A stretch of 37,380 bases of DNA from Candidatus Magasanikiibacteriota bacterium (GTDB lineage Bacteria > Patescibacteriota > Patescibacteriia > Magasanikbacterales > GWA2-37-8): assembly GCA_017991415.1 (NCBI GenBank), contig JAGOQR010000003.1, forward strand, positions 1 through 37,380. Direction: 5' to 3'. Below are positions 2,636-37,380 of this stretch, piece after piece. Both the position numbers and the translations under genes were made by a program. Each line of letters begins with the position of its first letter. Positions within the stretch are counted from its first letter, which is position 1. The notes beneath the pieces are model-generated. The model made no database searches and was not told where the DNA came from. It saw only the letters and a list, made by a program, of their open reading frames with translations.

Positions 2636-2667
2636 AAAAACACTTCACATTTCTGTGAAGTGTTTTT
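2636..2667. terminator. Strong intrinsic terminator
   Basis: A 14-bp stem (2636-2649 with 2654-2667) with a 4-nt loop, A-rich on one arm and T-rich on the other, can act in both directions. It separates the PsbP-like gene from the minus-strand GC-rich islet gene. Confidence 0.85.
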
Positions 2668-2682
2668 ATATTTTCCCTAAGA

Positions 2683-2730
2683 CCGTCACTACTATAGCAA
2701 TAAACTTTACAGCCATAGTGGTTGGGACGG
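2683..2730 (-). terminator. Hairpin at 3' edge of GC islet 1
   Basis: CCGTCACTACTAT (2683-2695) pairs imperfectly with ATAGTGGTTGGGACGG (2715-2730). It lies just beyond the stop of the minus-strand islet gene. A similar bulged hairpin closes islet 3 at 10831-10885. No good T run is present, so a role as terminator or element boundary is inferred. Confidence 0.4.
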
Positions 2731-2792
2731 CCAGGGAGCTTTCAGCATCTGCACCTCCTTTCCACGTGTTGCGCCGAACGAGCGCTTCACGA

Positions 2793-3371
2793 TCACTTCT
2801 CCTTGGGACCTCCGACGGTGGTGAAGACTGCCTCACCAGTGCGGAAGACCTCGGCGGCGGCAGTGCCACCGCCTTCGAACGCTGCCTGAAAATGCTTACC
2901 CGTCCAATGACCCGCGAAGAAGCCGCCCGACGGGCAACAGTCCCAGCGCATACAGCCGATGACCAGTTTGGCGCGTTCGCCGACATACGTTGCCCATGCA
3001 CTGTTGACTGATTCCGCGGTGTAGAGAGCGACCGCCTCACCCGGCCGAATACCGAAGCCGCACTGAGCGCAGCGGATGACGCACTCCTTGATCAGGGTGA
3101 GTCGGCACTGGGCGCACCGTTCGCGCTTGGCATATGCCTCATCGGTGAGCTCGATTGGCTCGCCGAAGATGTTAATGATGAACCGCTCGTGGTGCCGATG
3201 TCCGCACTGGTACTCCACCTCCGGACCCGACTGGTCCGTGATGAGGCAGGAGTCAGTCGAAGGCGGCAAGACCTCCTGCTCTTGAGTGCTTACCACCATC
3301 ACGAGACGGGGTGAACCGCCACGGAGCCAGTTGATCAATGCAACGATTTTCCGAAATGCCCAACTAAACAT
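2793..3371 (-). CDS. GC islet 1: Cys-rich putative zinc-binding protein
   Basis: No family is recognised. From the ATG at 3371 it is 192 residues. A GTG 12 nt upstream is possible, but GGTGGAG then falls at the ideal SD distance from this ATG. The middle has CGHRHH followed by two CxxC pairs (CAQC and RCAQCGFGI), spaced like a zinc ribbon or treble clef. The C-terminal part adds adjacent cysteines (WDCCPSG) and Gly/Ala-rich sequence. GC is far above the neighbours, the stop is TGA, and codons end mostly in G or C. It has its own promoter-like site and a 5' hairpin (3388-3403) next to the SD. Function is unknown; protein or nucleic-acid binding through zinc is only a guess. Confidence 0.6.
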   Translation of the reverse strand: MFSWAFRKIVALINWLRGGSPRLVMVVSTQEQEVLPPSTDSCLITDQSGPEVEYQCGHRHHERFIINIFGEPIELTDEAYAKRERCAQCRLTLIKECVIRCAQCGFGIRPGEAVALYTAESVNSAWATYVGERAKLVIGCMRWDCCPSGGFFAGHWTGKHFQAAFEGGGTAAAEVFRTGEAVFTTVGGPKEK

Positions 3372-3407
3372 GGGATTCTCCACCTGATTGGCGTAATTGC
3401 CAATATC

Positions 3408-3436
3408 ACACTATCTTTGATTAAAGCTCCTGTCAA
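3408..3436 (-). promoter_or_regulatory. Promoter-like site for islet 1 gene
   Basis: On the minus strand TTGACA (3431-3436) is followed after exactly 17 bp by TAGTGT (3408-3413). The -35 is perfect and the -10 is weak. A hairpin TTGGC/GCCAA (3388-3403) sits between the start site and the SD. Confidence 0.5.
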
Positions 3437-8045: not shown

Positions 8046-8117
8046 GTCCCTATCATATAGGGACTTCGTCACATATATACTCATTCACTCGGAAATACTA
8101 AAACACATTTTAGTATT
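8046..8117 (+). promoter_or_regulatory. Structured leader of small basic protein
   Basis: The leader holds two perfect hairpins: GTCCCTAT/ATAGGGAC (8046-8064) and AATACTAAAA/TTTTAGTATT (8094-8117, loop CACA). The sequence CTCATTCA occurs on both sides of the second hairpin (8080-8087 and 8120-8127). No SD is seen before the ATG. A regulatory role is inferred from position only. Confidence 0.45.
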
Positions 8118-8136
8118 ATCCTCATTCATTTCGCAT

Positions 8137-8259
8137 ATGGCTAAACGACCTACAGGACTTAAAAAAAGAACTAAATCACGACACTCTCCAAAAACAAAAA
8201 AGAGATTAGCTACCAAAAGAGAAATGCTTGCAAAAAAGGCTGCTAAAAAAAGAAGATAG
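8137..8259 (+). CDS. Very small, highly basic protein (40 aa)
   Basis: The ATG at 8137 opens a 40-residue reading frame with 12 Lys, 7 Arg and 1 His, one acidic residue and no aromatic residue. It starts MAKRPTGLKKRTK and ends AKKAAKKRR. It has a consensus promoter upstream and a strong terminator downstream, so it is a complete one-gene transcript, which argues for a real gene. The composition resembles small ribosomal proteins (bTHX, bL34, bL36) or nucleoid-binding peptides, but I cannot match it to any of them. Nucleic-acid binding is the likely role. Confidence 0.65.
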   Translation: MAKRPTGLKKRTKSRHSPKTKKRLATKREMLAKKAAKKRR

Positions 8260-8759: not shown

Positions 8760-8787
8760 TTGAAAAAAAATTAAACTCGTGTAATAT
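8760..8787 (+). promoter_or_regulatory. Promoter of GC islet 2
   Basis: TTGAAA (8760-8765), a 16-bp spacer and TAATAT (8782-8787). The leader to 8866 holds small hairpins (GGAA/TTCC near 8810-8822 and GAAGG/CCTTC near 8834-8851). It shares the decamer AGATAGTGTG with the islet 1 promoter region. Confidence 0.5.
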
Positions 8788-8865
8788 AAATAGTATTCAG
8801 ATAGTGTGCGGAAGTGCTTTCCAAAACATTACTGAAGGCTCTACAACCTTCGAGGCTCAGATCCC

Positions 8866-9081
8866 ATGGCTCTTCCCGATGATGACAAGGCCGACCTACC
8901 GAGCGTGTATGTTCCTGCGAACCGCCAACCCGACGACTGGGGTGGCGGACTGCAACCGCAGGCCACGAGCTCGGTGCAGGCGATGCCGCCCATCTCTCGT
9001 CCCCATCGACCCATGACCTACGGACCCAAGGAGGTCCATGGTGTGGGAAGACTGGACGAAGACGGTACGCGACTGGACTGA
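8866..9081 (+). CDS. GC islet 2: small Pro/Asp-rich ORFan
   Basis: A 71-residue frame with many codons ending in G or C and a TGA stop, in sharp contrast with the AT-rich neighbours. The protein is hydrophilic, rich in Pro, Asp, Gly and Arg (starts MALPDDDKADLPS) and has no Cys or hydrophobic helix, so it may be disordered. GAGG lies 10 nt before the ATG. No family is recognised. An AAGGAGG at 9030-9036 near its 3' end could initiate a second frame from ATG 9038, which overlaps both islet ORFs; I regard that as less likely coding. Confidence 0.45.
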   Translation: MALPDDDKADLPSVYVPANRQPDDWGGGLQPQATSSVQAMPPISRPHRPMTYGPKEVHGVGRLDEDGTRLD

Positions 9082-9111
9082 TCGCCACCCTTCTTCAAGG
9101 CTAATACGCCC

Positions 9112-9279
9112 ATGTCAGAAACGAGTGACAAGGCCAAGCCACGCGTCCCCGAAGAGAATGACCAGGATCTGCCCCCAAGCAATCCTATCGTCAGAACAAT
9201 TCTGGACGCAACGCGACGACGCGAGAAAGCGAACCTGCCATCGGTTCCGCTCTCGACGGACTTGCGCAACAAGAAATAG
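9112..9279 (+). CDS. GC islet 2: second small hydrophilic ORFan
   Basis: A 55-residue frame starts 30 nt after the previous stop (MSETSDKAKPRVPEEN) and ends in TAG. It is charged and Pro-rich, with G/C-ending codons typical of the islet. The predicted protein looks more natural than the overlapping 9038 frame, which is Arg/Cys/Trp-rich. The SD is weak (AAGG). No family is recognised. It may form a two-gene unit with 8866-9081, closed by the terminator at 9343-9390. Confidence 0.4.
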   Translation: MSETSDKAKPRVPEENDQDLPPSNPIVRTILDATRRREKANLPSVPLSTDLRNKK

Positions 9280-9342
9280 GTTGCATTAATCTGCCTCGCG
9301 CTCCCATGCGCGACCCAGGTGCGCAACCCACCCCCCACCAAC

Positions 9343-9390
9343 CTGAGAGCGCGTGCCTTGGCAACACCGCTCTCAGATCATATTTTTTAC
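9343..9390 (+). terminator. Terminator of GC islet 2
   Basis: A perfect 9-bp stem CTGAGAGCG (9343-9351) with CGCTCTCAG (9368-9376), then ATATTTTTT. The loop can extend the pairing through TGCC/GGCA. Confidence 0.7.
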
Positions 9391-9414
9391 CCCCACAAAA
9401 CCACTCGCATACCG

Positions 9415-9456
9415 TTGCGTTTTTTTTATTTTCTGATATACTACGCATCGTAGTAT
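9415..9456 (+). promoter_or_regulatory. Promoter and palindromic operator of FMN reductase
   Basis: TTGCGT (9415-9420), a 16-bp spacer and TATACT (9437-9442). Overlapping the -10 is a perfect inverted repeat ATACTACG-CAT-CGTAGTAT (9438-9456), the usual place for a repressor. Half-sites ATACTA/TAGTAT recur before the cytochrome b5 gene at 10665-10680. Confidence 0.55.
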
Positions 9457-10805: not shown

Positions 10806-10822
10806 ATAATAAATTTTTTATG

Positions 10823-10897
10823 AAGAAATTCGCCGTCACCCCTATTATGGCAAATGGATTGTCATAATAGGGGTGACTGACGGCGAAAAAACTTCTT
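10823..10897 (-). terminator. Long hairpin closing GC islet 3
   Basis: CGCCGTCA plus CCCCTATTATG (10831-10849) pairs with CATAATAGGGG (10863-10873) and TGACGGCG (10878-10885), with a 4-nt bulge TGAC. Weaker AAGAA/TTCTT pairing surrounds it. It stands 50 nt beyond the stop of the islet gene. Confidence 0.6.
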
Positions 10898-10934
10898 TTG
10901 CCGACAGCCACCCCTTCGCTTCGACCGAGACTTG

Positions 10935-11339
10935 TCAGTCCCAATCCTTGTTGGGTGGCTTGGCCGTCTTGGCCGAGGTCAGTTCCTGGAAGAGAGCCTC
11001 CACTCTTGGCCTGACCTCCGTAACGAACTCGAGGTAGTGTGGCTCAGTCGAGAGCACCACCTCCATCAAGCCGATGTCCACGCGGACGTGCTGCGGAGCC
11101 TTCACAGGCTCGCAGTAGACCGCTCGGCCACCATCGCTCAGAACGAGCAAGTGGAACCGACAGTGCGAACACCAGAGGATGGCGATCTCGTACGGCCACC
11201 GGACGACAGGATCGCTCACTCCGAACACGGCGCGCCGCTTGCATGCACACTCCATGCCACTTCCGACAGGCGGCCTGAAGGAAGCTGCGTTGCCGCCATC
11301 ATCCTGAGGATCCTCATGAAGAACACTATCTTGAGTCAT
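10935..11339 (-). CDS. GC islet 3: ORFan with Cys pairs
   Basis: No family is recognised. From the ATG at 11339 it is 134 residues; the frame stays open to a TTG at 11366, but ATG with CGGAG 11 nt upstream is preferred. The N-terminus is acidic, then CACKRR and WCSHCRF give two Cys pairs about 30 residues apart that could bind zinc, and a C-terminal helical stretch (about 95-134) is charged. Codons are GC-rich and the stop is TGA, unlike neighbours. It has a near-consensus promoter (11469-11497), a 120-nt structured leader and two downstream hairpins, so it is a self-contained transcription unit divergent from rplA. Confidence 0.6.
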   Translation of the reverse strand: MTQDSVLHEDPQDDGGNAASFRPPVGSGMECACKRRAVFGVSDPVVRWPYEIAILWCSHCRFHLLVLSDGGRAVYCEPVKAPQHVRVDIGLMEVVLSTEPHYLEFVTEVRPRVEALFQELTSAKTAKPPNKDWD

Positions 11340-11406
11340 CAGAAATCGAACTCCGGTTGTCGACAAGTATTTCCCCTAATAACTTGTCAGTTTTAGCCTA
11401 CACTCA

Positions 11407-11444
11407 GGGGAAAGAACGCACATACAGTAATGCCCTCTTTCCCC
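11407..11444 (-). promoter_or_regulatory. Hairpin in islet 3 leader
   Basis: A 9-bp perfect stem GGGGAAAGA (11407-11415) with TCTTTCCCC (11436-11444). A second hairpin (ACAAGT/ACTTGT, about 11363-11388) lies nearer the start codon. Together they fill the leader between the start of transcription near 11462 and the ATG at 11339. Confidence 0.5.
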
Positions 11445-11468
11445 CAGCCAAATTTCTATAAAGGCTAT

Positions 11469-11497
11469 AGTATAGTGGAAAAGGCCAAAATTGTCAA
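11469..11497 (-). promoter_or_regulatory. Promoter of GC islet 3
   Basis: On the minus strand perfect TTGACA (11492-11497), a 17-bp spacer and TATACT (11469-11474). It is back to back with the rplA promoter; the -35 boxes are about 15 bp apart. Confidence 0.75.
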
Positions 11498-22224: not shown

Positions 22225-23193
22225 CTATTTCTTTTTAACTCGGCTTACACGAATAAGACCGCCACACGGCACAATCTCTACACCTTTTTTCTCGAGTTCG
22301 TCTAAGTATAAATTCATACCCAAAGAATCTGAAGACATATGGCCAGCCACAACCACATTAAGATTATGTTCATTTGCTTTTTCCCGAGCATCTTTTTGCA
22401 TATGCATAGTCACCACAGTACTAATACCTGCACGTGAAAGCTCAGCATAAAGCTTACTGGATGGCTCTGTACCGCCAGTCATTTCTAATACAAATTTACC
22501 TGTTTTATTTCTTGGATTGCCACTAAAAATTACTGGGCCATTACCTCTTCTTTTTGCTTCTTGGTATTCTGGAATTTCCATAAGAGCTTCCATAATATCA
22601 CCAATTGTCTCCGGTTTCTTTTTAGCAAAAAATTCTGATAAAAATACATTTACCAGGTTATCGGTTGGCGTATGCATATTCATTAAATTGACCCCGAGCA
22701 GCCTAGCCATATCAATAATCTGATAATGGTTGTATGGATGCACTCCTCGACCAATATCTGCAATTCTCTCTTCCATAAATTTTTCTGCCAAATGCACTGG
22801 CACACCTAACTCTTCGTATACTTCTATTACCATATCCATGACACCATGCAAAGTTGCTAAGCTACCACCCATTGGATGATGAGCAATGACCGCATCTATC
22901 TTTGTACCCCGCTCACTAAGCTGTGTAGCAAGCAGCACCTCTCCTACTTCAGCATCTATACCTGCCAATATTCTTTTTATTGGGGCTTTAAGATTGCCAG
23001 TGTGAATACGGCAATCATGATGATAGGGATTCTCTAATTTTTCTCGATCAAAATATTCTTTTTCTTCCGGTTTTAAATTAGCATACTCTTTTTTAACTCG
23101 TTCTAAGTAAGCCTTAAGTCTTGCTGGTCCGCGAGGATCAGCCTTTATACCCATCTTTATTCCTAGATCGTATGCTTCTTTAAGAGTTATCAT
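22225..23193 (-). CDS. NIF3-family protein, paralog A
   Basis: A 322-residue protein of the NIF3 (NGG1-interacting factor 3) family, which form hexameric barrels with two metals of unclear function, perhaps nucleotide or GTP cyclohydrolase-like hydrolysis. AVIAHHPMGGS supplies the metal-binding His pair and GHMSSDSLGMNLYLDELEKK the C-terminal His and Glu. An extra N-terminal helical part (about 1-70) precedes it. It is about two thirds identical by eye to the next gene, so a tandem duplication is certain. In an operon with ruvA. Confidence 0.85.
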   Translation of the reverse strand: MITLKEAYDLGIKMGIKADPRGPARLKAYLERVKKEYANLKPEEKEYFDREKLENPYHHDCRIHTGNLKAPIKRILAGIDAEVGEVLLATQLSERGTKIDAVIAHHPMGGSLATLHGVMDMVIEVYEELGVPVHLAEKFMEERIADIGRGVHPYNHYQIIDMARLLGVNLMNMHTPTDNLVNVFLSEFFAKKKPETIGDIMEALMEIPEYQEAKRRGNGPVIFSGNPRNKTGKFVLEMTGGTEPSSKLYAELSRAGISTVVTMHMQKDAREKANEHNLNVVVAGHMSSDSLGMNLYLDELEKKGVEIVPCGGLIRVSRVKKK

Positions 23194-23226
23194 AGTATTA
23201 TATTATTAGTAAATTTACTCTTGAAT

Positions 23227-24192
23227 TTATTTTTTTCTTACTCGGCTGACACGTATAAGACCACCGCATGGAACAATTTCTACCCCTCTTTTTTCAAGTT
23301 CATCTAAATATAGATTCATGCCTAATGAGTCTGACGACATATGACCTGTAACCACTGCGTTCATATTACATTCTATGATTTTTATTCTTGCACCCTCTTT
23401 TATATGCATAGCAATAATAGTACTAATACCTGATCGTGAAATTTCTGGATATGCCGGACCAGCTGGATTAACGCCACCTGTCATTTCTAACACAAACCTA
23501 CCAATTCTACTTTTAGGATTGCCAGCAACTATAACTGGCCCCACTCCTCTTCTTTTCGCTTCTTGGTACTCTGGAATTTCCAGAAGCGCTTCGAGAACTT
23601 CTCCAATTGTTTGGGGATTTTTTTTAGTTAAAAAATCTTGTAAAAATTGGTCGACTAAATTATCCGTAGCTGTGTGTAAATTCATAAGATTCACTCCAAG
23701 CGGCCGAGCAACATCCACAACTTGATAATGATTGTGTGCATGTAACGATCTAAACACCTCTTCTTGCCGATCAGCTACAATTTTCTCGGCTATATGAATC
23801 GGCATTCCATTATCTCCATACCGATCTATATTCATCTCCATAACTCCCGTTAGGGCTGCCTTACTGCCGCCAATTGTATGATGAGCAATCACCGCATCTA
23901 TTTTTTTTCCTCGTTCACTGAGCTGGGTAGCAAGCAAAACTTCTGCTGCCCCAACATCTATTCCAACCAGAACTCGTTTAATGAGCACTTCTGACTTTCC
24001 AGTATGGATACGGCAATCGTCATAGGGATTCACCAGCTTTTCTTTGTCAAAATATTCTTGCTCGCTTTGACTCATGCCGGCATACTCTTTTTTTACTCGA
24101 TCGAGAAAATTATTGACTCTGTTTTTACCACGAGGATCTGCCTCTTTTCCCATCTTTAAACCCAAATCATATGCCTCTTTAAGAGAAATCAT
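23227..24192 (-). CDS. NIF3-family protein, paralog B
   Basis: A 321-residue tandem paralog of the gene at 22225-23193, with the same N-terminal helical part, AVIAHHTIGGS metal site (Pro-Met replaced by Thr-Ile) and GHMSSDSLGMNLYLDELEKR. Both end in VPCGGLIRVSRV and a Lys-rich tail. It is the first gene of the operon, after the promoter at 24224-24252. Two copies may form mixed hexamers, or one may be specialised; nothing in the motifs shows loss of metal ligands. Confidence 0.85.
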   Translation of the reverse strand: MISLKEAYDLGLKMGKEADPRGKNRVNNFLDRVKKEYAGMSQSEQEYFDKEKLVNPYDDCRIHTGKSEVLIKRVLVGIDVGAAEVLLATQLSERGKKIDAVIAHHTIGGSKAALTGVMEMNIDRYGDNGMPIHIAEKIVADRQEEVFRSLHAHNHYQVVDVARPLGVNLMNLHTATDNLVDQFLQDFLTKKNPQTIGEVLEALLEIPEYQEAKRRGVGPVIVAGNPKSRIGRFVLEMTGGVNPAGPAYPEISRSGISTIIAMHIKEGARIKIIECNMNAVVTGHMSSDSLGMNLYLDELEKRGVEIVPCGGLIRVSRVRKK

Positions 24193-31981: not shown

Positions 31982-32081
31982 AGTACACAAGCTACATTAT
32001 ACCAAATTTTGAATGTAAACTAAAAAAAGCTACTGAAGCTTTATGTGATGTTTGGTATTTTTCATTATAAAATTAATTTTT

Positions 32082-32111
32082 CCAGCATTTGTTCGCGGGT
32101 ACAAACGCTGG
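32082..32111 (-). terminator. Hairpin at 3' edge of GC islet 4
   Basis: CCAGCATTTGT (32082-32092) pairs, with one mismatch, with ACAAACGCTGG (32101-32111), just past the stop of the islet 4 gene. Without a clear T run, termination is uncertain. Confidence 0.4.
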
Positions 32112-32118
32112 CAAAAAC

Positions 32119-32361
32119 CTACCTCCTCCCAAACCGTCTATGGCGACGCCTTCGCGGCTTCTGCTCAGGCACCTGCCTCACATTCGGCACATGCACTTTC
32201 GGCATGTACACCACCTGAACTGGCACTTCGCCCCGTGACATGACCGTCACCCGTTCGGCGAACACCAAGAAGCCATGTCGATTCCATGTGAGCGCGCCAA
32301 CAGGCACACCCAACTCGTTCGCAGCAAACCGACGAGCTTTCTCGCGCTCGCGATTAATCAT
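32119..32361 (-). CDS. GC islet 4: small basic ORFan
   Basis: An 80-residue frame from the ATG at 32361, preceded by a perfect AAGGAGG (32367-32373) 5 nt upstream; a start at 32391 would run through that SD. The protein begins MINREREKARRFAANELGV, has a beta-like middle (WNRHGFLVFAERVTVM) and ends in an Arg-rich tail RRRRHRRFGRR, suggesting nucleic-acid contact. GC-rich codons set it apart from neighbours. TTGACA lies at 32405-32410 on the minus strand with a weak CATGCT 17 bp away. No family is recognised. Confidence 0.6.
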   Translation of the reverse strand: MINREREKARRFAANELGVPVGALTWNRHGFLVFAERVTVMSRGEVPVQVVYMPKVHVPNVRQVPEQKPRRRRHRRFGRR

Positions 32362-32367
32362 GGCGAC

Positions 32368-32383
32368 CTCCTTGTGAAAGGAG
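32368..32383 (-). promoter_or_regulatory. SD-sequestering hairpin before islet 4 gene
   Basis: CTCCTT/AAGGAG with loop GTGA (plus strand) folds the SD of the islet 4 gene into a 6-bp stem. It only works if transcription starts upstream of about 32385; a start from the weak -10 at 32382-32387 would give a leader too short to contain it. Confidence 0.35.
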
Positions 32384-32414
32384 CATGCCACAAATTAGGC
32401 CCTTTGTCAATATT

Positions 32415-32463
32415 CAATTTAAACAAAAAAGCCACCATTATGGTGGCTTTTTTGTTTAAATTG
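32415..32463. terminator. Very strong terminator
   Basis: A 24-bp perfect stem (32415-32438 with 32440-32463) with GCCACCAT core and T/A runs ends the giant minus-strand gene 11 nt after its stop; it also separates it from islet 4. Confidence 0.9.
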
Positions 32464-32473
32464 TTTTATTTTA

Positions 32474-35400
32474 TTATTGGTATAACGGGAATGTATTTAC
32501 CGTGGTAGGTAATGCGCCAGAATATAATGTTTGACCAGCGCTATTTACCATTAACAAGGTACCTCCATGGCCAGCATTACTAAATCGTACCGTAGCTACC
32601 GTACCATCATTAAAGGTAATACGAGCACCCGTTTCTGTAGCTGTATTATCCGCCACAGCAGCTGTTACTTTACTGTTTACACCGATGATATGGAGGAATA
32701 ATGATTCAGCCCCAGTGTTATGAACACCTTCTGCGCGAATACCAGTAAATACTCCAGTAGTTGTCCAAGGTACACTCGCTGGAGCAAGTCTCCAAACATC
32801 TGCACGTTGACTGTTAGCAGTAAAGGTTAGTTGGTTACCAGAAATAGTTGGAGTACCAGACATTTGTAATTGGAAGGTTCTTGGTGTACCGGCAGCATTG
32901 GCAATAGCTCTATCAAAGAGTACGACTGCGCCAGACTTGATAAACACCATTTCTCGTTCAGACTTAGCTACCAAGAATTGATTAGTATAAGGATCTGTAT
33001 ATACTGGTCTTGTATCCATCAGTTCGTAAGAGAACAAAGAGCCGTCTGACAATGCAAGGATTTGAGATGGGGCTGAGCCTTCACGTTGATGAACAACACT
33101 ACTACCAGCACCAAACCGTACCAAATTATGGTATATTTCTTCACCATCAATACCGCTGTTAGAACGAAGGTTAGCGTCATCAAACAACCAAGCACCAGCA
33201 GAATTTAACATGAACGAACCCTGATCTTTGTGGGCATGACTTTGGTCATATAGCCCAGCAATCGTGTGAACAAGGATAGCATTGGTGCTCCAAGAAGAAC
33301 GAGTATATAAGTTCCCCGTACCAGTACCAAAATATGTAGTGTTAAGAATTGATAGTGGTCGAGCTGTAATATTTGGCCAGTCATTAATAAAGTCAGACCA
33401 ATAACTTACACTATATGACATTTGCGGTACATTAGATTGAGCGAGCAAAGTCTTAATTGCTCCGGACACTTGCTCATTTGGATATAGAGACATTAAATTT
33501 TCAAGTAATTCACGGTGGTAGTCATAGAAGGAAGCTGTAGCATCACGAGACTGGTCACCAGTTGGCACAAACTTATTAAGTGTTGGCGCCATAGAATTTG
33601 CCCACCAGAACATAGTACCCAAGGTGTGCGGAGTTTGATTAGCAATATTTACACCAGTTGATTTTTCCCACCAGAAATATAATTTAAACAATCTTTTTTG
33701 TGCAGTTCCATAACCAGTACCTTCCAATGATCCACCGCCAGCTAAATTATTAAAGGCTGGAATTAACTGAGCTTCGATTTTGTCATTATAGAATTTATTA
33801 AGCCATTGAGAAGCTTGTGGGTTTTCTCCATAAGTTGCCAAACCAGCAAACATTGTAGCTTCCAAGAAGGAGTAATAGTAGTTATTGAATGGATCATTGA
33901 GTGACCAGCCTGACCATGGAATATTAACACCGCCCCAGCGCACTTCGTCTGGATCACCCCATAAATTATTAAGAACTGTATTCATGTAATTAACCCATCT
34001 TGTTTTTTGGGATGCAGTTAATCGATCATTAGCCCAGTCATACACGAGAGCTACATCACCAACATAGTCGCCAACTTCCAAAAAGCTATCTCCAGCAACT
34101 ACCGGACGCATACCACCAGCAATTCTCGCTTCTTCGGCTGCAACAAATGCATCAACTTTGTTGATTGCGAATGTTGCGTAGCGTGTTTCTCCCGTTAACC
34201 TATACATTAATGCTGCAAACCAACCTTGGAAAGCATAATTTGTACCAGGGCTCGAGAGCTCATTATTTACCATTGTTCTAAAGCGAGCAGCGCCAGCCGT
34301 ATTACTACTAAGAGCTGCTTGTAGTCTAGTAAGAGTGGCAGAATCATTAAGTAAAATACGAGGGTTAGCTGTAGATAACGGTCGAACTGTAGCAGTTGGA
34401 GCAGGTGCAGCAAAAGTTGCACCTACAGTTCTGGCTGCACTCATAGATACGGTACAAGTACCAGTACCAGAGCAGGCGCCGCTCCAACCAGAGAAGGTAT
34501 TGCCACTCGCAGCTGTAGCTGTAAGCGTTACAGACGTATTATTAGCAAAAGTCGCTGAACAAGTTACACCACAATTGATGCCATTTGGTAAAGAAGTAAT
34601 AGTACCATTACCAACTTTGGACACTGTTAAGGTGTAGTTAGAAGCTGGGGTAGTGGTAGGTGTTGGAGTTGGAGTCGGTGTTGGAGTTGTTGCAGTTGAG
34701 CCAGCATACCCAAGAGTAGAACGCATCCACCAATTAAACTTGCGAGGAGGGTTCACGCGATATTTTGGTAAAGTAAGGGTTGTGCGAGTTGCATCAGTAA
34801 AGGCATGGACTGCACATGATCTTAATTGAGTATTACGAGCACTTACCGCTGCTGTTGGTAATCCAAGAGCAGTCTTTGCAGAAATAGCAAACGAAACTAA
34901 CCCTGAAACATCTAAACAATGATCAAAATCACCTTCTGCTGGAGTTTCGTTGAGATATGGGCCAGTTGGTCCAACGAGGTAATAAGCAGCTTTAATTCCA
35001 CTAAATGCAGAATCGAGCACACTACCATCAAAATAACCATTTAGCTCCATCCAATCTGCATAACGACTTACTTGTTGTAAGACTTCTGTATTACCAGTTA
35101 ATACATTAAGTCTTCTTGCAGCTTGGAAATATAAAGCACTCATCCAAGGACTTGTTACCAATTGTGAACCGCCGCCACCTTCATGTTTATCAACAGTTAC
35201 CAAAGGCACGCCGTTGCCAGCATTTGCAACCACTGTCCACTGTGCTACCAACGCATTGGCACGAGCAAGAGCTGCAGAATCACCAGTTAACTCATACCAA
35301 GATACGGCTGCTTCGAGGGCTAAGCCAATTTCACGTTCTGTCCAAAGATCAGCAGAGCTAGCATTATATGTGCTACTAAAATCATTTAACCATGCATTAT

Positions 35401-37380
35401 AAATTCTTTGTGCAATTGGTCGATATTGAGAATCGCCAGTTTCTTTTTCGTATAACAGGAACGGAGTTACATAACTATACTTAGTATCTCCATATCCCTT
35501 TGGCGTAAAGATACCATTTGCATCTATATGTGTTCTATAATATGCAAAGTCAGATAAGAATTGTTGATACCAACGAGCTTTTTGAGTTGGGTCTGTAGTT
35601 CGTTTATATAAATAGTAACCAACAGAAGCTCTATCAAATAACCATGGTTCGTATGTGGTTTCAGTGTAATTCCAGTTACCGCTATTACCACTAAAATTAG
35701 GATCTACAGTATGCCCTTCAAAGTTCCAGTTTCTTGCCCAAGTTTCAGCAAATTTAACAAGCGGAGCATCTGCAGGATCAGTAGTGTTAAAAGCTGGGAA
35801 GGACACGCTTGAACCTGGAGTTGGGGTAGGTGTTGGAGTAGGAGTAGGATTTGGAGAAGAATATGCTGTTAAATAATCTTGGACAGAAAAGCCATCTGCT
35901 CCTGTATCATAATTAATCTGCCACCAGTTATAGCCACTTGCATTAGTTGGACCAGCTAAAACTGTTCCAAGAGCTCCTAAAGCTTGAGTGCCAAGCAATG
36001 TTCCAGAAGTATTAGGAGTGGATCGAACATTTAAACCTGCAGTAGTTTGAACACGTTGTCCGATAGAAAAAATACCAGTTGGTGTTGGAGTAGGATTTGG
36101 TGTTTGGTTAGTTGCAGCACTACAACTAGCAGATGTACCACCATTTGATCCAGCACAAGTCCAAGACCAAGGTCCAGAACCAGTTACAGAACTTGCAGAA
36201 CCAGTGGAACAAAGGTTAGAAGTTGGAGCGGAAGAAAGAGTAGTGTTATTAGCAGAACCACACACACCATTTACTGGACTTGGAGCTGCAGGAGGCAATG
36301 TAATGCCGTTTAATACAACGGTTGCATCATCAAGCATTACACCTTGTAACGCTTGGCTGCCTTCTTGAAAAATACCAAGACGAACACGACTTACATCACG
36401 CGTATTGTCTAGTGCAAACGTAAGATTCACAGTACCTTTATCTCCAGCACTACCACTTACATTAGTACAATCTTTAACACCAGATCCAGTTGTATAATCT
36501 ACTAGAGCACAGAAAGAAATTTGAGAAGCAGAAGAAACAGTTGCGCGAACTTTGATAGATGCGGCCAATCGATCGGAACGCTTAGTAGTAAAATTTGTTA
36601 ATTCTCTACCGTTCCAAAGAATACTGTCGCCATAACCACCAATACCAATTACCAAACTGCGTGAGCCGCTGATTGGATTAACAGTAGTAACGTTTACCGA
36701 CGTACCACCTTGATTTGGCTCAAAGTCTGAGGTGGTTTGTTCAAAACCTGGCTCTTGCACTAAATTATCACCAGTTACAGAAGTAGAAGGATTTGTTGTT
36801 TGAGCAGCAAAGGTTGCTACTACTGTGCGAGCAGCAGTCATAGACACAGTACAAACACCAGTGCCAGAACAAGCGCCGCTCCAACCAGAGAAAGTGTTAC
36901 CACTTGCAGCGGTGGCTGTTAAGGAAACAGAAGTATTATTAGCAAAATTGGTTGAACAAGTAGTGCCACAGTTAATACCTGCTGGGCTGGAAACTACAGT
37001 ACCGTTACCAGTTTTGGAAACAGTAAGAGCAAAATTTGTTGGTGCCGACATAGTTTGGGCACTACAACTAGCAGATGTACCACCATTTGATCCAGCACAA
37101 GTCCAAGACCAAGGTCCAGAACCAGTTACAGAACTTGCAGAACCAGTGGAACAAAGGTTAGAAGTTGGAGCGGAAGAAACGTTTGTATTGTTAGCAGAAC
37201 CACAAACACCATTTACTGGAGTAGGTGTTGGGGTAGGAGTTTGAGAAAGAGAAGCACTACAACTAGCAGATGTACCACCATTTGATCCAGCACAAGTCCA
37301 AGACCAAGGTCCAGAACCAGTTACAGAACTTGCAGAACCAGTGGAACAAAGGTTAGAAGTTGGAGCGGAAGAAACGTTTG
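32474..37380 (-). CDS. Giant surface protein with two lyase-like toroid domains (5' end outside window)
   Basis: The frame is open to the window edge, so the visible part is the last 1634 or so residues. Numbering from the ATG at 37051 (probably internal): upstream two Cys-rich GSGPWSWTCAGSNGG modules; InlB-like B-repeat 7-86; a jelly-roll CBM-like domain about 90-254; a third Cys-rich module; an SH3-like domain 325-400 (GLNVRSTPNTSGTLLG); Pro-Thr linker; an alpha-toroid 415-785; second InlB-like repeat about 804-884; and a C-terminal heparinase II/III-like part with PRILLNDSATLTRL at its start and SHAHKDQGSFML near 1270. It is probably secreted and acts on polysaccharide. Which of the two toroids is catalytic is not known. 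Neither a signal peptide nor an anchor is in view. Confidence 0.8.
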   Translation of the reverse strand, partial: NVSSAPTSNLCSTGSASSVTGSGPWSWTCAGSNGGTSASCSASLSQTPTPTPTPVNGVCGSANNTNVSSAPTSNLCSTGSASSVTGSGPWSWTCAGSNGGTSASCSAQTMSAPTNFALTVSKTGNGTVVSSPAGINCGTTCSTNFANNTSVSLTATAASGNTFSGWSGACSGTGVCTVSMTAARTVVATFAAQTTNPSTSVTGDNLVQEPGFEQTTSDFEPNQGGTSVNVTTVNPISGSRSLVIGIGGYGDSILWNGRELTNFTTKRSDRLAASIKVRATVSSASQISFCALVDYTTGSGVKDCTNVSGSAGDKGTVNLTFALDNTRDVSRVRLGIFQEGSQALQGVMLDDATVVLNGITLPPAAPSPVNGVCGSANNTTLSSAPTSNLCSTGSASSVTGSGPWSWTCAGSNGGTSASCSAATNQTPNPTPTPTGIFSIGQRVQTTAGLNVRSTPNTSGTLLGTQALGALGTVLAGPTNASGYNWWQINYDTGADGFSVQDYLTAYSSPNPTPTPTPTPTPGSSVSFPAFNTTDPADAPLVKFAETWARNWNFEGHTVDPNFSGNSGNWNYTETTYEPWLFDRASVGYYLYKRTTDPTQKARWYQQFLSDFAYYRTHIDANGIFTPKGYGDTKYSYVTPFLLYEKETGDSQYRPIAQRIYNAWLNDFSSTYNASSADLWTEREIGLALEAAVSWYELTGDSAALARANALVAQWTVVANAGNGVPLVTVDKHEGGGGSQLVTSPWMSALYFQAARRLNVLTGNTEVLQQVSRYADWMELNGYFDGSVLDSAFSGIKAAYYLVGPTGPYLNETPAEGDFDHCLDVSGLVSFAISAKTALGLPTAAVSARNTQLRSCAVHAFTDATRTTLTLPKYRVNPPRKFNWWMRSTLGYAGSTATTPTPTPTPTPTTTPASNYTLTVSKVGNGTITSLPNGINCGVTCSATFANNTSVTLTATAASGNTFSGWSGACSGTGTCTVSMSAARTVGATFAAPAPTATVRPLSTANPRILLNDSATLTRLQAALSSNTAGAARFRTMVNNELSSPGTNYAFQGWFAALMYRLTGETRYATFAINKVDAFVAAEEARIAGGMRPVVAGDSFLEVGDYVGDVALVYDWANDRLTASQKTRWVNYMNTVLNNLWGDPDEVRWGGVNIPWSGWSLNDPFNNYYYSFLEATMFAGLATYGENPQASQWLNKFYNDKIEAQLIPAFNNLAGGGSLEGTGYGTAQKRLFKLYFWWEKSTGVNIANQTPHTLGTMFWWANSMAPTLNKFVPTGDQSRDATASFYDYHRELLENLMSLYPNEQVSGAIKTLLAQSNVPQMSYSVSYWSDFINDWPNITARPLSILNTTYFGTGTGNLYTRSSWSTNAILVHTIAGLYDQSHAHKDQGSFMLNSAGAWLFDDANLRSNSGIDGEEIYHNLVRFGAGSSVVHQREGSAPSQILALSDGSLFSYELMDTRPVYTDPYTNQFLVAKSEREMVFIKSGAVVLFDRAIANAAGTPRTFQLQMSGTPTISGNQLTFTANSQRADVWRLAPASVPWTTTGVFTGIRAEGVHNTGAESLFLHIIGVNSKVTAAVADNTATETGARITFNDGTVATVRFSNAGHGGTLLMVNSAGQTLYSGALPTTVNTFPLYQ
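36117..36237 (-). repeat. 121-bp identical repeat, copy A
   Basis: Encodes the Cys-rich GSGPWSWTCAGSNGG module. It is identical over 121 bp to 37059-37179 and 37254-37374, although each lies in a different part of the protein. Confidence 0.85.
37059..37179 (-). repeat. 121-bp identical repeat, copy B
   Basis: Same module as copy A. B and C also share six further bases up to the window end. Confidence 0.85.
37254..37374 (-). repeat. 121-bp identical repeat, copy C
   Basis: Third copy, next to the window edge. A Pro-Thr linker (about 37219-37242) separates it from copy B. Confidence 0.8.

Follow-up and report, generated by a model that had tools for sequence, protein, structure and literature searches.

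GC-rich gene units form a second gene class in the AT-rich genome of a patescibacterium and its sister species

Horizontally acquired genomic islets, or alien genes, stand out by their atypical GC content, and the T-DNA of Agrobacterium holds genes that reside in a donor genome and bear the expression signals of the host. The GC-rich units described here resemble alien islets in their atypical GC, codons and Shine-Dalgarno (SD) sites, in their ORFans and in their presence or absence between relatives; unlike such islets, they keep their composition through silent-site saturation in orthologous units, lie behind AT-rich, native-like promoters and have a 3' RNA geometry common to unrelated genes. 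With T-DNA they share the notion that genes can be written to be expressed in a cell other than their own, but here a prokaryotic partner is assumed, the comparison extends to neither border repeats nor vir-type transfer, and the native promoters of the islets suggest delivery of RNA rather than DNA. Compared with T-DNA, islet signals are non-native and resemble those of GC-rich Gram-negative bacteria, a candidate group for the recipient. Integron cassettes likewise consist of one small ORFan gene each, followed by a 3' hairpin, and some islets also form arrays; the islets, however, showed no attC core motifs in the 12 hairpins read, are accompanied by no evident dedicated integrase in the two sister species, have their own promoters and are scattered genome-wide at conserved slots. 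The type IV secretion system (T4SS) of Patescibacteria, reported to be widespread and mostly without a relaxase, is a candidate delivery machine, the abstract of that report (PMC12102498) covering the secretion machinery and no GC-rich gene class. Titles and abstracts of the open-access literature on the feature, hosts and RNA export gave no account of the islet gene class, and neither did the passages considered from PMC13059738.

The DNA analysed, hereafter the window, is the 37,380-nt stretch C4:1-37380 of genome G000, which comprises 1.02 Mb in four contigs and is AT-rich, with a mean GC of 0.385 across its sampled part; the bacterium is probably host-dependent. Comparisons were made with G001 and G002, sister species of the same genus, the sampled DNA amounting to 641 kb of G000 (~63 %) and to 36-38 % of the sisters, with 400 kb from G001 and 416 kb from G002. 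One identical gene-calling procedure, whose calls are heuristic, was applied to all three samples, and a GTDB-wide homology scan covered one islet protein.

Four GC-rich islets in the window

The original prediction of four islets with a GC content well above that of the host genes was borne out, with peaks of 0.60-0.64 at 2661-3420, 8781-9440, 10821-11420 and 32061-32440 (islets 1 to 4), as against 0.385 for the sampled genome. Their parts are listed below; promoter-like sites, the leader hairpin of islet 1 and the terminator of islet 2 were read from the letters themselves.

Islet 1, 3408-3436 (-): promoter-like site in AT-rich DNA, TTGACA at 3431-3436, 17-nt spacer, TAGTGT at 3408-3413
Islet 1, 3387-3404 (-): leader hairpin ATTGGCAATTACGCCAAT, immediately upstream of the SD
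Islet 1, 3378-3385 (-): strong SD, AGGTGGAG
Islet 1, 2793-3371 (-): coding sequence (CDS), 192 aa, Cys-rich, GC3 0.71, stop TGA
Islet 1, 2674-2737 (-): 3' hairpin, dG -29.7, 12 bp, CCA bulge on the 5' arm, 14 bp above
Islet 2, 8866-9081 (+): ORF a, 71 aa, GC3 0.65, stop TGA, less certain
Islet 2, 9112-9279 (+): ORF b, 55 aa, GC3 0.64, stop TAG, less certain
Islet 2, 9343-9389 (+): terminator hairpin, then a T run
Islet 3, 11469-11497 (-): promoter-like site, TTGACA at 11492-11497, 17-nt spacer, TATACT at 11469-11474
Islet 3, 11394-11467 (-): leader hairpin, dG -33
Islet 3, 10935-11339 (-): CDS, 134 aa, Cys-rich, GC3 0.71, stop TGA
Islet 3, 10822-10895 (-): 3' hairpin, dG about -40
Islet 4, 32382-32411 (-): promoter-like site, TTGACA at 32406-32411, 18-nt spacer, CATGCT at 32382-32387
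Islet 4, 32367-32373 (-): strong SD, AAGGAGG
Islet 4, 32119-32361 (-): CDS, a short ORF, 80 aa, basic C-terminus, GC3 0.65, stop TAG
Islet 4, 32076-32118 (-): terminator hairpin, dG -18

TTGACA-type promoters are readable in islets 1, 3 and 4, and a hairpin follows each islet, as had been claimed. The purine-rich SD is weak in islet 3 (GGAG) and in islet 2, whose pair of short ORFs is the least secure among the window islets; the score cut-off of the gene calling dropped the short ORFs of islets 2 and 4. The islet 1 protein has relatives in two genomes, one from its own family (36 % identity) and one from the same order (28 %). In genome G003 (L003:1213-1290 and 1957-2035), an islet-1 homologue lies between two near-identical bulged hairpins of ~75 bp, GGTGGCGCGCTAGAACCAGACG..CGTCTGGTTTTTT, in direct orientation.

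Two candidate explanations for the window islets were set aside. A MITE or other shared repeat was rejected because comparison within the window found no repeat common to the islets, and structured non-coding RNA was rejected on two counts: Rfam gave no match, and coding is shown by the long ORFs, which bear signal peptides and reach a GC3 of 0.98. Elsewhere in the window, a dispersed repeat at 8055-8145, which has short matches scattered over dozens of sites in the two sisters G001 and G002 and a few in G000, ends directly ahead of a small ORF at 8137; a 1525-aa ORF at 32474-37051 contains internal repeats (158-bp and 221-bp families); and two adjoining paralogous genes at 22225-24192 share ~71 % DNA identity over 300 bp.

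A genome-wide second gene class and the anatomy of its units

The islets are part of a second gene class that extends across the genome and in which each unit is autonomous. In G000, native genes (n=436) have a GC3 of 0.301, an SD of at least 5 nt in 6.9 % and stop codons TAA, TAG and TGA in 75, 20 and 6 %, respectively; for the islet genes (n=40) the corresponding values are 0.744, 65 % and 8, 48 and 45 %. The initial observation that islets 1 and 4 carry SD sites which AT-rich genes mostly lack thus extends to the 641 kb of G000, where such SDs precede 26 of 40 islet and 30 of 436 native genes (Fisher p=1e-17), the gene caller favouring SD-bearing starts to an equal degree in both classes. 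Similarly, TAA ends 3/40 islet and 325/436 native genes in the same DNA (Fisher p=2e-17), and the TGA that was seen to end three of the five window islet genes is the rarest native stop. Per-gene values of GC3, codon use and SD split the genes of the sisters in the same way (37 islet genes in G001 and 40 in G002). There is thus strong support, genome-wide and in two further species, for the proposal that the islets are a separate gene class placed between native transcription units.

Codon use of islet genes is alike across the three genomes and opposite to native use, with TTA making up 0.00 of Leu codons vs 0.30 in native genes and AAA 0.12 of Lys codons vs 0.81. Codon bias through high expression in the cell was rejected, since the native EF-Tu gene has a GC3 of only 0.29; the islet dialect therefore cannot be put down to the usual codon adaptation of highly expressed genes. 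Islet GC3 covers a broad range, from 0.5 to 0.98. Several further genera of the order have GC3-outlier genes too, though these are few in some genomes (two in 280 kb of G036). At L263:4780-8543 (G044 C3), near a contig start, a thiolase-like gene and its neighbours have GC3 of 0.86-0.90; this region may stem from contamination or from chimeric assembly of the contig.

A unit consists of an AT-rich promoter, a structured leader, usually an SD, a GC-rich and usually ORFan CDS, and a strong 3' hairpin. Elevated GC is confined to the leader, the CDS and ~90 nt of the 3'UTR, and the promoter zone (-60 to -210) is AT-rich, matching native intergenic DNA. Median hairpin stability is -32.8 kcal/mol at the 3' side of islet genes vs -21.2 for native genes, and -27.7 vs -17.4 kcal/mol at the 5' side. 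Many islet 3' hairpins share one geometry, in which a lower stem leads to a bulge of 3-5 nt in the 5' arm, topped by ~13-18 bp of upper stem; it is found in 25/76 islet vs 14/98 native hairpins at dG<=-18, and in 22/48 vs 4/29 at dG<=-26. A strict scan for the bulged hairpin over both strands of the 641 kb, with a match assigned to a gene when within 250 nt 3' of it, gave 26 matches, 11 of them islet, 3 native and 12 elsewhere, one of the last lying 50 nt 3' of a GC-rich ORF dropped by the caller; the mirror-image geometry gave 16 matches in the same 641 kb, none islet and one native. Across the three species, the islet 3 hairpin has an identical base and keeps its bulge, with the upper stem rewritten on both arms and still complementary.

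Encoded proteins and a host-directed reading

Most islet proteins are ORFans. Pfam matches were obtained for ~9 of 74, namely kinase, histidine phosphatase, adenylosuccinate lyase, inositol phosphatase, HAD hydrolase, NUDIX, DUF4430, DUF218 and metzincin-like proteins. PHROGs matches among the 74 fell into nine families with one member each, mostly enzyme or unknown; phage, plasmid or defence origin was rejected, the matches being few and due mainly to one Ser/Thr kinase that also matches PADLOC kinase models. Several islet proteins are lipoproteins, and a lipobox of the ..GAGC type, which is typical for the group, occurs in 0/15 of these vs 11/21 native lipoproteins (p=0.0007), 7/8 within this genus; absence of lipoprotein processing was rejected, LspA being present in all three genomes. 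The adenylosuccinate lyase (PurB) of G002 is encoded in an islet and is an orphan enzyme. None of the three genomes has PurA or PurC, both of which were found in 14/14 control genomes, and this leaves islet PurB without a source of substrate in the genus. Tracing of a donor through PurB was unsuccessful, its nearest relatives, in Deferribacterales and Phycisphaerae MAGs, being only 54 % identical.

One islet family is class-wide, occurring in 64 of 286 genomes, GC-rich Patescibacteria included. At 30 of its loci, an SD is present in 24 and GC3 is 0.65 as against 0.46 for the genes on either side, the excess being >0.1 in 19. This family (L266:4700-5275, relatives L269-L298) has a Trp-rich C-terminus, and downstream of its gene there is often another small ORF that matches this C-terminus. 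A tandem array of about six GC-rich units occupies ~54.9-61.0 kb of G000 C1 (L006:14921-20000 and L019:1-980); it encodes two near-identical lipoproteins (E 1e-113), contains internal tandem repeats with an assembly gap, and has several AT-rich leader palindromes with a common TTAGTTAATAAA..TTTATTTATTAA.

The reading favoured here, the likeliest of those weighed and possible though short of probable, is that the islets are host-directed genes: their durable mRNAs would be written in the coding dialect of a Gram-negative, GC-rich partner, whose ribosomes would read them. According to this proposal, the islet proteins would be aimed at such a partner; the epibiont's own RNA polymerase would transcribe the islets from their native-looking promoters; hairpins at both ends would stabilize the mRNAs; and these would be delivered to the partner, perhaps by way of the patescibacterial T4SS or pili, candidate routes taken from the literature (PMC12102498, abstract), to be read by its SD-dependent, GC-adapted translation system. 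Selection in the partner would then hold codons, SD, stop codons and lipoprotein signals to the partner dialect. Such a system would amount to a bacterium-to-bacterium equivalent, in RNA (or DNA), of the T-DNA genes with their host signals. Translation by a partner would jointly explain the codons, SDs, stops, lipobox, hairpin ends and orphan enzyme. The more specific idea of mRNA-based effector delivery, in which a parasitic or symbiotic patescibacterium would export hairpin-capped mRNAs in host dialect for the host to translate, is rather doubtful. Against translation by the host, the epibiont is able to read islet mRNAs itself, for its 16S retains the anti-SD GGATCACCTCCTTT and CNN anticodons are among its 44 tRNAs; a missing anti-SD and missing GC-reading tRNAs were accordingly rejected as explanations, and neither supports host-only translation. 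In addition, the GC3 spread is wider than one tightly selected host dialect predicts, the folding of islet CDSs fits long-lived structured mRNAs inside the epibiont, and the prior for cross-species use of mRNA is low.

Shared slots and competing readings

Intergenic sites in the relatives bear on whether the islets arrived from outside. At the site of islet 3, between matching native neighbours, G001 (GC3 0.59) and G002 each have a fast-evolving gene, with promoter and 3' hairpin conserved in both sisters, and at the site of islet 4 all three genomes have GC-rich small genes. For G001 clusters with both flanks mapped in G002, the interval contains an islet in 9/15 and none in 6/15, the three genomes being too diverged for insertion junctions or target-site duplications to be read at empty sites; in the reverse direction, an islet lies in the matching interval in 10/17. 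Comparisons involving G000, with fewer mapped flanks, gave 2/2 (G000 to G001), 3/5 (G000 to G002), 1/6 (G001 to G000) and 1/12 (G002 to G000). Gene content at shared slots often differs between sisters, and gain and loss of whole units is real. The original idea of insertion is therefore favoured by the empty sites and opposed by the conserved islet 3 unit; islet genes do stand at shared sites, but their codon use stays non-native.

Recognizable islet orthologs have 23-46 % protein identity, compared with a native median of 74-80 %, and their four-fold sites are saturated (46-81 % differ). Among the orthologs, one family has a GC3 of 0.84-0.98 and most others lie at 0.50-0.72, compared with native values of about 0.30-0.37. 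In the clearest family (G000 C1:235695, G002 C11:301974 and G001 C5:84950), GC3 is 0.89, 0.84 and 0.98, respectively, promoter and leader are 61-67 % identical vs 46-55 % for the CDS, and the 3' region is 74 % identical between the G000 and G002 members. A single old transfer should have reached a GC3 of 0.30, which calls for either selection on silent sites or repeated replacement, and the shared promoters and hairpins favour the former; pairs at GC3 0.50-0.65 may reflect partial drift. Some islets are thus inherited vertically with their composition maintained, and whole units are also gained and lost.

The foremost rival holds that effector-type genes are repeatedly acquired from GC-rich bacteria, be they hosts or other Patescibacteria, and are expressed and secreted by the epibiont; they would be GC-rich still because they arrived recently or are replaced time and again at slots that tolerate them. 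Codons, SDs, stops and lipobox that are donor-like all together fit this account, as do the ORFan majority, the presence or absence of units at equal sites, the differing content of shared slots and the class-wide family that includes GC-rich Patescibacteria. However, the saturated orthologs with shared promoters, leaders or 3' hairpins have a GC3 well above native, which amelioration to 0.30 does not predict, the promoters lie in native-like AT-rich DNA, and no plasmid or viral relatives emerged for the four queries tried. As an explanation of the class it is somewhat unlikely, while for the many islets without orthologs recurrent effector acquisition is a serious rival.

CDSs of islet genes fold somewhat more than their synonymous permutations (mean z -1.34 vs -0.53 for native genes), doing so beyond codon choice in 19/22 genes, and part of the islet GC may therefore serve RNA structure. 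This finding, the strong hairpins at both ends, and the presence of the anti-SD and CNN tRNAs suit a further alternative, in which GC, SDs and end hairpins are selected within the epibiont for long-lived structured messages, for example ones stored in a host-free stage and translated upon host contact; SDs aid the start of ribosomes on structured mRNA. It leaves the different lipobox and the orphan PurB unexplained, the excess of folding over native genes is modest, and we consider it unlikely.

Mobile cassettes, whether integron-like, MITE-like or elements with terminal inverted repeats (TIRs), moved by a trans-acting recombinase, would account for the gain and loss of units and for arrays such as that of G000 C1, and one G001/G002 family of tandem Cys-rich islets (L096:12000-13400 and L111:10800-11250) has complementary ends, AACTTTTTAGAT..ATCTAAAAAGTT, which may be either an RNA panhandle or DNA TIRs. 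Nevertheless, attC core sites (RYYYAAC...GTTRRRY) were absent from the ends of the 12 islet-associated motif hairpins searched, G001 and G002 have a single tyrosine recombinase apiece (G000 has three), and the window islets have no repeat in common, making this account improbable. More broadly, the suggestion of mobile, plasmid- or phage-derived insertions mostly did not stand, given the shared slots, the lack of relatives for the islet queries tried, one against plasmids and three against viral contigs, and the paucity of PHROGs matches. Two of the G000 recombinases, unmatched in G001 and G002, are extra ones at C1:97451-105132 by a tRNA-Asp (C1:105320), a region that is probably an integrated element. 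Assembly contamination or a gene-calling artefact, which short ORFs, GC-rich spurious ORFs, MAG data and the marginal islet 2 might suggest, is scarcely credible. It is refuted for the class as a whole, in which islets and native genes alternate along long contigs and islets turn up in all three genomes, several of them at homologous sites; for single short ORFs it is possible.

Patescibacteria make up a vast radiation, most of it uncultured, and the islet class may bear on the question of how its members affect their hosts. The marks of the islet class, namely composition, SD and 3' RNA geometry, allow candidate host-interaction genes to be listed directly from sequence, and the codon dialect might also point to the host. 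Even if islet messages are not read in a host, silent sites of a single gene class that stay GC-rich in the face of AT pressure demand explanation; if host translation is true, it would represent a new mode of interaction between bacteria.
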